From Pseudomonadota bacterium (GTDB lineage Bacteria; Pseudomonadota; Gammaproteobacteria; Burkholderiales; Sulfuriferulaceae): a stretch of DNA of 64,000 bases. The stretch spans positions 117,224-181,223 of the forward strand of contig JAJZUW010000001.1 of the NCBI GenBank assembly GCA_021845925.1, in the 5' to 3' direction. This document shows positions 35,253 to 38,113 of the stretch, in pieces (position 1 is the stretch's first letter; every line of letters begins with the position of its first letter). Under the pieces are notes generated by a model. It searched no databases. It was given only the letters and a program-made list of their open reading frames with translations, and was not told the DNA's origin. A program made the translations under genes and the position numbers.

Positions 35253-35665
35253 CCAAACCTTCGTAAGCGCCAGGCCACCCCACCTTCGTAAGCGCCCGCC
35301 ACCACCCCACCTTCGTAAGTGCCCGCCCAGCCTACCACCTTCGTCATTCTGCGCGGAGCGAAGCGAAGTCGCAGAATCTCACATGGCGTATGAACAAGAA
35401 GTGCAGATTCCGCAACTACGCGCGGAATGACGAAACCCCCAACGCAACTACGCACGGAATGACGATCCCTTCAACAGGTCAGCAAGCGTCCAGCAACCAC
35501 CCCACCTTCGTAAGTGCCCGGCCAGCCCAACACCTTCGTCATTCTGCGCGGAGCGAAGCGAAGTCGCAGAATCTCGCATGGCGTATGAACAAGAAGTGCA
35601 GATTCCGCGACTACGCGCGGAATGACGAAACCCCCAACGCGACTACGGACGCTGATGCCGAATAG
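35253..35665. repeat. Palindromic repeat field downstream of scpB
   Basis: Four copies of CCTTCGTAAG(C/T)GCC occur between 35265 and 35520. A unit of about 150 bp is present twice with a 195-bp period (about 35301-35452 and 35496-35647), differing at only a few bases. Each unit holds two hairpin-forming parts (ATTCTGCG...CGCAGAAT and ATTCCGC...GCGGAAT). This resembles REP/dRS3-like intergenic elements rather than coding DNA. Short ORFs here are translations of the palindromes. Confidence 0.75.
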
Positions 35666-36023
35666 GATGACAGTGGTCATGTGTCCGAAAGCCACCAGCC
35701 CGGTGCCGGCTGTCTGATTTTCGGCGCATCAGCAGAGTTGTCCGAGGATCTCTGATCGGCGGAAAGTGATTAGCGCTTTCCAGGCGCATTCTGTCGCGCG
35801 ACTTTCTACATCGTCTCATCGTTTGATGGTTTGCCGCGATCGGTGACCCGGCGGTTCGGATGGCAGAGGCAATTTTGCCTGAATCGGAGATTTTGCAGGG
35901 ATGACTATGTCACTGAGTCCTTCATGCAGGAATCGGAGTAGACGGCGACCAGCATCAACCCTGATCTGGGGTGCATGACTTGCACCGATCGGTTCAATCA
36001 GAAGGGATATAATGAGGCGCACC
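35666..36023. other. Intergenic stretch without a supported gene
   Basis: About 360 bp between the repeat field and the candidate RNA. It holds the left 15-bp direct repeat (35786-35800). A 75-codon minus-strand ORF (35816-36043) has no recognisable domain and starts inside a hairpin. A TATAAT at 36008-36013 on the plus strand has no good -35. Confidence 0.5.
35786..35800 (+). repeat. Left copy of 15-bp direct repeat
   Basis: GCATTCTGTCGCGCG, identical to 38114-38128. Flanking bases differ on both sides, so this is a discrete repeat. Possible attachment-site or duplication footprint. Confidence 0.5.
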
Positions 36024-36088
36024 ACAAAGAGAAACGCCTCCACGAAGGAGGCGTTGGACCGGAGATCCGATCTCCGGCGGGGTTAACG
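36024..36088 (-). ncRNA. Candidate small RNA with two hairpins and a terminator
   Basis: From a predicted start near 36088 on the minus strand the transcript folds CCGGAGAT/ATCTCCGG (8-bp stem, 36077-36059), then AACGCCTCC/GGAGGCGTT (9-bp stem, 36055-36033) with a TTCG-containing loop, followed by TCTCTTTG, a terminator-like tail. A consensus sigma-70 promoter lies directly upstream. The result would be a stable RNA of about 65 nt, divergent from the NYN gene. It could instead be a leader for a 75-codon ORF downstream. No Rfam family is recognised. Confidence 0.5.
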
Positions 36089-36094
36089 TAGAAA

Positions 36095-36122
36095 ATTATA
36101 CAGGGCGCCTGGTTTCTGTCAA
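36095..36122 (-). promoter_or_regulatory. Consensus sigma-70 promoter for the candidate small RNA
   Basis: Minus strand: TTGACA (36122-36117), 16 nt, TATAAT (36100-36095). Both hexamers are perfect, the best promoter seen in the window, yet it points away from any convincing gene. Confidence 0.65.
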
Positions 36123-36145
36123 GCAGGCGTGGTCGAGGGCAGCTG

Positions 36146-36769
36146 ATGCAACGTGTTGTGGTCTACGTCGATGGTTTTAATCTGTATTTTGGATTGCGCA
36201 GCAAAGGTTGGAAAAAGTATTACTGGCTGGATTTGCTTGCTTTGGCAACGTCGTTGCTAAAAGAAAATCAGCAAGAGCTGATTCAGGTGCATTACTTTAC
36301 GTCGCGGATTTGTGACAATGGCCGCAATTCTGAAGATATACAGCGTCAAACAACGTACCTTGAGGCGTTAGCCACCTTTCCGAAGGTCGTGTCGCACTTC
36401 GGACACTATCTGGAAAAACCAAGGCTGTGCAAGACGTGTGGTGCCAAGTGGAAGGATTACGAAGAAAAAATGACCGATGTGAATATCGCAGTACAAATGT
36501 TGACTGATGCTTTTGAGGATCATTTCGACACAGCTTTGCTGGTATCTGGGGATAGCGATCTGACGACACCGGTCAGCCGGATACTTGCGCGATTTCCTGA
36601 CAAAAAGATCATTGTCGCACTACCACCAAATCGGCGTTCACATCAGTTGACTAAGGCTGCAACTGGTTATTTTGTCATCAACGAAACTGCATTCCGACGT
36701 AGTCAGTTGCCAATGGAAGTGCAGCGTGCTGATGGATACGTATTGCAACGACCCATATATTGGAAATAA
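36146..36769 (+). CDS. NYN domain protein (PIN-like ribonuclease fold)
   Basis: 207 aa, LabA/DUF88-type NYN domain. The acidic catalytic set of PIN-like nucleases is present: D9 in YVDGFNLYF, D111 in KMTDVNIAV, and D136/D138 in SGDSDLTTPV. A CxxC pair (C95, C98, CKTCGAKW) in a loop before KMTD may bind zinc. The start follows GAGGG by 6 nt. The gene is more AT-rich than its flanks. The family acts as metal-dependent RNases and recurs in defence and toxin settings; an RNase role here is inferred. SIR2-like gene lies about 200 bp downstream. Confidence 0.9.
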   Translation: MQRVVVYVDGFNLYFGLRSKGWKKYYWLDLLALATSLLKENQQELIQVHYFTSRICDNGRNSEDIQRQTTYLEALATFPKVVSHFGHYLEKPRLCKTCGAKWKDYEEKMTDVNIAVQMLTDAFEDHFDTALLVSGDSDLTTPVSRILARFPDKKIIVALPPNRRSHQLTKAATGYFVINETAFRRSQLPMEVQRADGYVLQRPIYWK

Positions 36770-36772
36770 AAA

Positions 36773-36907
36773 ATGCCATCAGTCAACCAACATCTCGAGA
36801 CTCAACATGCTTTCTGCAACTTGTGTGGTCGGAATGCGCGCCATAACTTGCTGCAAAGAGGCGAAAACGTGGGGAATGGTGGCTTTGTCGAATCGTTTTC
36901 GCGCTGA
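36773..36907 (+). CDS. Possible 44-aa protein with a CxxC pair
   Basis: Starts 4 nt after the NYN stop: MPSVNQHLETQHAFCNLCGR... The CNLCGR pair resembles half a zinc ribbon. No ribosome site is visible and no family is recognised; it may be chance or the remnant of a longer gene. The remaining 70 bp before the SIR2-like gene show nothing clear. Confidence 0.3.
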   Translation: MPSVNQHLETQHAFCNLCGRNARHNLLQRGENVGNGGFVESFSR

Positions 36908-36980
36908 TAACTGCTTCAATGTAACAGCTGCTAACGAGTTGATTTTTTGGTGTGGCTAGAAAAGCGAGTGACTGCTTGAC

Positions 36981-37994
36981 ATGAGAACAAATTTATTTTT
37001 TCTGGGTGCGGGATTTTCTGCGGACGCGGGTCTGCCTGTATCCAACAGTTTTATGAACTCAATGCGTAACGCTGGGAAGAATTATTTTTTGGAAAAAACT
37101 CCGCCATCGCTTAATGTGCCAATACGTGAGTTTCTTGGTTATCAGGATGGAAAAAAAGAAATTTTTGATTCGGCATTGATAAGTAATATTGAATTCTGGT
37201 TAAGTCTTGTTTCTGCGAAATCCTTGGGTGGTATATCTAATCGGGGATTTACAAAACTCCAGATGCAGGTCGCAATTTCACAAACAATCGAGCATTGTGT
37301 ATCCGGTCTTTCGCCAGAAAATGAAAATTATGTCGATTCGTTCGTGAACAAGTTCGGCAAAAATTCAACTGTCATCACATTTAATTATGATGATCTGGTT
37401 GAGCGCGCTTGTGATCGCAATGATATGCGTTACCGCTATGGATTTAAAATACATGGTTTTGATTCAAAATTTACCGTTTATTTCCACAATAGAAAATTCG
37501 ATCCTGATGAAAACCCATCGAGTTTTCCAATATTCAAGTTGCATGGATCATATAACTGGATTGTGAAAAACAACACGAACAATATTTTTGTTGTAAGCGA
37601 TATGAATGGTTTTTTTAGGGATTCTTGTTTTTGGGAACAAGATTGGACTGGATACGGCTTTGTTATTGAACCACCCACAATCGACAAGATTTATGCTGCT
37701 CCTGTTCTATCTCAGGTGTGGGGCGTGTCTTATGATGCTTTGACCACGGCGGAAAATATCGTTGTCATCGGATATTCGTTTCCAGAAAATGACGGCTATG
37801 TCAAATATTTATTAATGGCCGCGTTGGCTGAAAATGAACAACTCAAAAGTTTCATTGTTGTTGATCCGTATTGTGATGATTTGTATAAATCAAGAATAAA
37901 GTGGTTGATCAATTTGCTCGAAAGAAAAGGCATACAAATCCAATTTTGCAAGAAAACTGCAAGATCCTGGGTTGAGGCTAATTCTGCTCGTTAA
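36981..37994 (+). CDS. SIR2-like domain protein (putative NADase)
   Basis: 337 aa. GAGFSADAGLP (9-19) is the NAD-binding start of SIR2-like proteins; TFNYDDLVERA (133-143) supplies the N/D pair, and KLHGSYNW (186-193) the catalytic-type His. GYSFPENDGYVKYLL (264-278) is typical of the SIR2_2 family. There are no zinc-ribbon Cys pairs of a deacetylase, so NAD hydrolysis, as in several phage-defence effectors, is more likely than deacetylation. It is the most AT-rich gene of the window, which suggests transfer. No HerA, Argonaute or TIR partner is adjacent; the NYN gene is the only candidate partner. Function is inferred. Confidence 0.9.
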   Translation: MRTNLFFLGAGFSADAGLPVSNSFMNSMRNAGKNYFLEKTPPSLNVPIREFLGYQDGKKEIFDSALISNIEFWLSLVSAKSLGGISNRGFTKLQMQVAISQTIEHCVSGLSPENENYVDSFVNKFGKNSTVITFNYDDLVERACDRNDMRYRYGFKIHGFDSKFTVYFHNRKFDPDENPSSFPIFKLHGSYNWIVKNNTNNIFVVSDMNGFFRDSCFWEQDWTGYGFVIEPPTIDKIYAAPVLSQVWGVSYDALTTAENIVVIGYSFPENDGYVKYLLMAALAENEQLKSFIVVDPYCDDLYKSRIKWLINLLERKGIQIQFCKKTARSWVEANSAR

Positions 37995-38113
37995 TGTCAT
38001 TATACATCTCTTATACCAACCAAGTTTTGAGTGTTCGTAATATCTAGTGCCGAATTTCATGTTGAAGGCGGCATCCGGATAATCGGTGGCTGGATCTGTT
38101 TCGACAACAGCCA

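Follow-up and report, generated by a model that had tools for sequence, protein, structure and literature searches.

A small structured RNA and an NYN-domain nuclease gene are encoded divergently in the window (the whole 64,000-nucleotide stretch of DNA that was analysed), and comparative data indicate that this RNA represents a new family tied to HEC-09-like NYN nucleases. The short terminated unit next to a putative RNase gene, described in the first-pass annotation, is thus real on these data and part of a larger finding than first stated. Sequence comparison supports the existence of a structured RNA with a promoter of its own, the association of this RNA with NYN genes, its free orientation and copy number, and the presence of viral copies without NYN. 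In the reading that we favour, with a probability of roughly 0.6, the RNA would neutralise the NYN RNase much as in type III toxin-antitoxin systems, and phages would borrow the RNA as a mimic.

In the window, consensus promoter hexamers on the minus strand are followed within about 65 nt by two strong hairpins (Table 1), as the first-pass annotation had claimed, and both the sequence and the fold statistics confirmed this. An exact TTGACA-N15-18-TATAAT arrangement occurred once in the whole 64-kb window and in 0 of 100 dinucleotide shuffles, and TTGACA also preceded the RNA in L033, L002, L253 and other loci in which the spacer DNA differed. The minimum free energy of the folded 73 nt was -31.1 kcal/mol, compared with -20.2 ± 3.3 kcal/mol for shuffled sequences (z = -3.3), none of 200 being as stable. 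The pyrimidine-rich tail and the terminated character of the unit held in part: a terminator-like hairpin followed by the tail was present, but a C and a G interrupt the U-tract after hairpin 2, so that termination is plausible rather than certain. That no convincing gene follows was also upheld, no minus-strand ORF of at least 80 aa being present between 35,456 and 36,024. A simple consensus scan over 5 kb returned 4 promoter-like sites against 4.1 expected and 5 terminator-like sites against 5.5 expected; such a scan would not convince by itself, and the case for the RNA rests on comparative data. The covariance model R1, which includes the window RNA as one of its 35 training rows, matched it at 36,085-36,021 with 72.8 bits (E 1.3e-20), and BLAST returned a single match in its own genome. 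The search of Rfam 15, another check proposed in the first-pass annotation, gave no match at gathering thresholds across the window and none at E ≤ 10 for 35,900-36,200. Four relatives (L046, L066, L055 and L063) gave 8 Rfam matches, all sub-threshold, and just one touched the RNA, namely SscA in L055 on the opposite strand (26 bits against a gathering threshold of 60, E 2.4). The loop AU-NGC-AU raised the idea of an anticodon-loop mimic, which was rejected since the loops of other copies of the RNA differ.

Table 1. Coordinates of the RNA gene and adjoining features in the window
Feature	Position	Strand	Basis or remark
-35 hexamer TTGACA of RNA promoter	36117..36122	-	Sequence
-10 hexamer TATAAT of RNA promoter	36095..36100	-	Sequence; 16-nt spacer to -35
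Predicted ~65-nt small RNA	~36088-~36024	-	Both ends inferred, 5' end from distance to -10
Hairpin 1	36059..36077	-	8 bp, 3-nt loop (GAU-CGG-AUC type)
Hairpin 2	36033..36055	-	9-bp terminator-like stem, then TCTCTTTGTG
NYN-domain nuclease gene, 207 aa	36146..36769	+	Divergent from RNA; nuclease by fold
Possible decayed hmaA 3' remnant (Hma operon helicase)	35906..35983	+	Doubtful, weak alone

Homologues of the NYN gene were scanned with one genome per species, and the best 80 of at least 551 NYN loci were kept. Alignment A3 (MAFFT, not structure-fitted) contained 35 RNAs from 30 of these 80 loci, the window and L033. In A3, 94.8% of cells pair in the stated structure, and two-sided change was found in 12 of 17 pairs, comprising 7 of 8 in hairpin 1 and 5 of 9 in hairpin 2. 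Two-sided cells numbered 86, whereas shuffles gave 20.4 ± 6.3 and controls with slid pairing partners no more than 16. A structure-fitted set of all 89 R1 matches, weak partial ones included, gave 228 two-sided cells against 54.7 ± 11.2. The covariation in related genomes, which the first-pass annotation had named as a check, was therefore strong in both sets. At E ≤ 2e-5, R1 recovered the RNA in 66 of the best 80 NYN loci and in 36 of the 50 outside training. Among the 14 loci missed by R1, the upstream DNA was shorter than 150 nt in 3; of the others, the hairpin detector flagged 9 and left 2 unflagged. Across 95 sources (966 kb), all R1 matches at the same threshold adjoined an NYN gene, except those in L002 and L032. 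Furthermore, a sigma-70-like promoter (-35/-10 agreement of at least 9/12 at the right distance) was located directly upstream in 39 of 52 hand-picked R1-positive loci, compared with 6.7% of mononucleotide shuffles. The NYN-RNA loci belong to Pseudomonadota, Chloroflexota, Planctomycetota, Actinomycetota, Bacteroidota, Acidobacteriota and other phyla. On this comparative evidence the pairing of RNA and NYN is close to certain, and the occurrence of the RNA beside homologous NYN genes in many phyla supports the original suggestion that a short RNA works with the adjacent RNase gene. No RNA partner of HEC-09 was found in the freely accessible literature searched, and an RNA-enzyme pair spanning many bacterial phyla is apparently undescribed.

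The putative RNase gene next door proved to be a plus-strand ORF for an NYN-domain protein, a probable RNase by fold. The protein matched Pfam NYN (E 9.6e-14), the only Pfam match at E ≤ 0.001 and with no Abi_2 match, and its residues 1-207 aligned with positions 1-203 of the 203-position PADLOC profile PDLC04163 HEC-09 (E 4.9e-93). Its structure was predicted with a pLDDT of 97, and the closest solved folds were VPA0982 at Z 17.5 and, at Z 16.2 and 15.8, NYN domains of MARF1, followed by T5 5'-exonuclease (Z 8.4). D9, N12, E107, D136 and D138 were among the residues invariant across 46 aligned relatives. The structural model suggests RNase activity for the window protein, the NYN domain of MARF1 being an RNase. 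In L045 (1501-2970), and also in L037, NYN was in frame with a second domain in fusions of 489 and 494 aa; this domain presumably resembles D-Ala-D-Ala ligase. In Pseudomonas, the sole paper found to name HEC-09 reports that it correlated with phage susceptibility (PMC12447246), which speaks against the favoured reading.

The RNA is not confined to one position relative to the NYN gene. R1 gave 74 matches in 66 loci, of which 64 were upstream and divergent, 4 upstream and co-directional (including those in L063, L069 and L072) and 6 downstream (L056 and L075 among them), and the median distance to the NYN start was 55 nt for the 68 upstream matches. L056 contained four tandem RNA units, each preceded by TTGACA, and two units each were present in L054, L057, L064, L075 and L108; three copies in L046 and two in L051 were recognised by eye. 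Copies that overlap go unreported by R1, so its copy counts are low. In L046, L051 and L064 the tandem copies of a single locus varied in stem and loop. On a tree of the NYN proteins, covering 177 of 190 loci, RNA orientation as labelled by the hairpin detector was clustered yet changed along the tree; in L081 and L093 this label conflicted with R1, and R1 was trusted. Since the structure is kept while place and direction change, the RNA probably acts in trans.

Copies of the RNA were also found in viruses. Pattern scans of viral contigs combined with R1 identified at least 19 viral loci with the RNA at 44 bits or more; after one viral pattern scan, R1 was run on 77 new loci and L469. Three pairs of viral loci were alike (L298/L323, L426/L469 and L306/L327). 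Weak viral R1 matches in L317, L263, L309, L260, L262, L333, L303, L412, L414 and L435 were excluded as copies, as were L490 (36.6 bits) and L488 (35.2 bits), yet the latter two were among the 21 viral records in which NYN was sought. No NYN gene was detected by tblastn in 241 viral loci or by the NYN profile in any of 21 complete viral records carrying the RNA (several of which are fragments); in all 4 positive controls this query did detect NYN. Neighbouring genes were tested in 11 viral RNA loci, and a functional PHROG match lay nearby in 6 of them: an endolysin next to the RNA in L327 and at a distance of about 1.2 kb in L306, terminase subunits flanking it in L489, a tail fibre and a helicase in L431, a virion protein in L323 and a transcription regulator in L493. 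The tested neighbours in the other five (L492, L469, L491, L430 and L392) gave no PHROG match. Twenty viral copies, a set that included L412, L490 and L488, covaried in a structure-fitted alignment (42 two-sided cells against 10.3 ± 2.8), and all 20 aligned to model positions 1-65, spanning both hairpins and the linker. The named isolate Dolichospermum phage Dfl-JY45 carried a 59.4-bit copy between two annotated genes and was not one of the 2 phage records with an NYN match. In the genome G098, a prophage region contained the RNA and HEC-09 was located elsewhere. BLAST of the window RNA against phages returned no more than matches of 19 bases, all in 24 records of Klebsiella phages, and the RNAs of L306 and L496 returned nothing. 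A 25-base BLAST match in Delftia phage PhiW-14 was rejected, as R1 gave no match there at E ≤ 0.1. Among the roles first proposed for the RNA, an antitoxin or a decoy fits the solitary phage copies better than a regulator.

The presence of RNA copies in phages that lack the enzyme suggests that the RNA restrains an anti-phage enzyme. The module would consist of a promoter-driven, terminated RNA of ~65 nt and an NYN-fold RNase (HEC-09), and the RNA would bind the nuclease and hold it in an inactive state. Upon disturbance of transcription or RNA turnover by a phage, the protein would outlast the short RNA; the freed RNase would then cleave RNA and infection would be stopped, and phages could counter with RNA copies acting as mimics. 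For this scheme we infer transcription of the RNA, RNA-protein binding, inhibition, toxicity, release upon infection and a function of the phage copies. An inhibitor role fits best because the RNA is short and terminated, the tandem units suggest dosage, its placement is free and the phage copies are full-length. The broader proposal, that these are phylum-spanning, undescribed RNA-guarded NYN immune modules combining a fast-evolving, trans-acting two-hairpin RNA with phage-borne RNA mimics that disarm them, stands at about even odds. The chief rival is that the NYN effector needs the RNA as a cofactor or sensor, the two forming a complex, active or primed, by which infection is recognised, with phage copies as dominant decoys. 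Tight linkage and conservation of structure would suit any RNA-protein complex, the differences in stem and loop among tandem copies within L046, L051 and L064 are compatible with this role, and solitary phage repeats (Racr) also act as decoys against a cofactor RNA (PMC10651486). However, the viral copies cover the whole model (20 of 20) and not merely a binding part, and four full tandem units with TTGACA before each look like dosage. A cofactor role is thus conceivable but rather unlikely.

More distant NYN genes were included in a count of two-hairpin elements within 200 nt upstream, which were detected in 135 of 182 NYN loci (near and distant), compared with 31 of 546 in dinucleotide shuffles and 17 of 172 in stretches downstream of NYN; 47 of the 182 loci had none. 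By group, the element was present in 66 of 76 genome loci, 49 of 76 viral NYN loci and 20 of the remaining 30. The count covered 182 of 190 NYN loci, with L113, L126, L078, L090, L097, L157, L169 and L198 omitted for short or ambiguous upstream DNA. At E ≤ 0.002, R1 matched 3 of 80 viral NYN loci. Alignment A7, built from 21 hand-picked distant loci, covaried as well (72 two-sided cells against 20.8 ± 4.0), and with its model R2, 31 of 93 loci (12 used in training) gave one match each at E ≤ 1e-4, all adjoining NYN and one of them, with 26 bits, on a 3.5-kb E. coli plasmid; a further match in L149 (E 1.8e-4) also adjoined NYN. Because R1 and R2 match few distant loci, it is the layout that suggests one RNA family across near and distant NYN genes. 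At least two tandem two-hairpin units were seen by eye upstream of NYN in the distant loci L144, L147, L162 and L179. L495, L496, L497 and L499 are small plasmids (3.5-4.3 kb) from E. coli or Klebsiella, each with an NYN gene among its 3 to 5 annotated genes; upstream hairpins were recognised in them by eye, R2 confirmed L496 alone, and for the remaining three the hairpin detector gave no element.

The element of many distant NYN loci runs in the direction of the gene, its terminator-like hairpin ending just before the start codon. This layout and the short median distance of 55 nt would suit an RNA that controls NYN in cis, acting on the mRNA leader as an antisense in divergent loci and forming a terminator-attenuator leader in co-directional ones. 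No single mechanism suits both orientations, though, and R1 finds the RNA in both and downstream of NYN; moreover, the free phage copies hold the structure while their stem sequences vary, which antisense pairing would forbid. Control in cis is therefore unlikely as a general mechanism in view of the varied orientations, and we regard it as improbable.

Solitary copies also occur in bacteria. A search of 399 genomes of the order gave 9 strong RNA matches, 3 of which adjoined NYN; weaker R1 matches (~20-32 bits) were taken as a group, not individually, to be ordinary terminators. The six strong copies without adjoining NYN were found in L002, the G098 prophage region, L249, L250, L252 and L251. 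In L002 the NYN gene is deleted after its first codons and the RNA is kept, and in the Hma locus L249 (3425-6164) a retron (St85-like RT and PtuA-like ATPase) stands in NYN's place with the RNA kept at the hmaA end. The solitary RNA of L250 (5958-6114) is 17 nt 3' of a tRNA-Ala(cgc) gene, that of L252 (6088-6282) 59 nt 3' of a tRNA-Thr(cgt) gene, and that of L251 lies near genes that, by eye, resemble toxin-antitoxin genes. The antitoxin reading does not by itself account for L249, L250, L252 and L251. An element that works as DNA or merely punctuates transcription, be it a terminator, a member of a repeat family or a cargo-swapping recombination site in Hma operons, would explain its retention in L249 and L002, but the directional promoter conservation, the compensatory change in both stems, the single copy in its own genome and the NYN-linked copies across many phyla make this idea very improbable.

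The NYN gene and its RNA are located between scpB and rluB. This gap measures ~2.9 kb in the window, compared with 64-449 nt in 15 of 15 same-genus loci holding both genes (the contig ended first in two further loci), and GC content was 0.38-0.48 at 36,000-37,999 (NYN and the next gene) against 0.56-0.61 outside. The short gaps and the drop in GC indicate that the ~2.9-kb stretch is an insertion without counterpart in these same-genus relatives. BLAST with the RNA gave a best match of only E 0.036 in 17 same-genus genomes. In the search of 399 genomes the best same-genus R1 match reached 21.9 bits (E 0.003). One same-genus genome (G006) had a distant NYN relative elsewhere, with 41% identity. 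A SIR2-like gene adjoins NYN at 36,981-37,994 on the plus strand (Pfam SIR2_2, E 2e-9; PADLOC Aga_SIR2, E 9e-24). Between scpB and the island, two near-identical copies of ~110 nt, from CCTTCGTCATTCTGCGCGGAGCG to GGAATGACGAAACCCCCAACG, were noticed by eye at ~35,339-35,640.

We take the HEC-09 name to imply a location inside the Hma operon, and a preprint reportedly treats systems embedded in Hma. The relative G098 has the order HmaA helicase, RNA on the opposite strand, NYN and HmaB. The possible hmaA remnant of the window matched the C terminus of L249 HmaA at 46% over 26 residues (E 0.23, one internal stop); it lies at the expected place and strand, just before the RNA, and HmaA of L033 gave no match there. 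The search for hmaB in the window returned no match below E 1. The Hma operon itself comprises a helicase, a methylase and an ATPase (PMC8565338).

The HEC-09 protein entry gains an RNA partner, which alters how the system should be cloned and tested, as NYN without the RNA could be toxic or dead. With the R1 covariance model the module can be recognised in many phyla, and phages expected to be resistant can be predicted. Should the antitoxin reading be true, a nuclease fold would be added to the RNA-neutralised toxins, and RNA mimicry by phages would be more general than PhiTE. The broader proposal of RNA-guarded immune modules, if true, would also provide a further natural RNA-for-RNA counter-defence beside pseudo-ToxI and Racr, and perhaps a common one.

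Like the type III toxin-antitoxin systems ToxIN, CptIN and TenpIN, the module pairs a gene for an RNase-like protein with an adjacent gene for a small, structured, terminated RNA, which is present as tandem units in some loci. Unlike their ~36-nt pseudoknot repeats, the RNA here forms two nested hairpins in ~65 nt, and it is mostly divergent with its own promoter. RNA repeats co-transcribed upstream of the toxin with a terminator between them, the type III layout, were not seen in the window, which has a single divergent unit; some relatives alone have the co-directional layout. With regard to ToxN, CptN and TenpN, the best sequence and fold matches of the window protein were NYN proteins, and the ToxN fold is assumed to differ from its NYN/PIN-like fold. 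As the layout differs and direct inhibition is inferred, the module is not classed as type III. The closest catalogue entry is PADLOC HEC-09 with the Hma operon: the window NYN is HEC-09, and HEC-09 of L033 lies between HmaA and HmaB. HEC-09 is, however, catalogued as a protein profile, and of hmaA no more than a doubtful remnant is left in the window. The abiF RNA motif is in Rfam, whereas the window RNA has no Rfam match, and an Abi_2/AbiF protein there contrasts with NYN here. Both cases join a defence-linked protein to an associated RNA, and the AbiF ncRNA RCd22, which neutralises its toxin in cis and in trans (PMC12373285), is a precedent for a non-classical RNA-neutralised defence protein. 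RNA anti-CRISPRs (Racr) resemble the viral copies in that phages bear solitary copies of a host defence RNA (PMC10651486), although no CRISPR protein or repeat is known to take part here. Phage PhiTE, in turn, escapes ToxIN by expanding or capturing ToxI-like repeats (pseudo-ToxI; PMC3475682); the solitary phage copies found here recall this case, which sets a precedent for the proposed mimicry.
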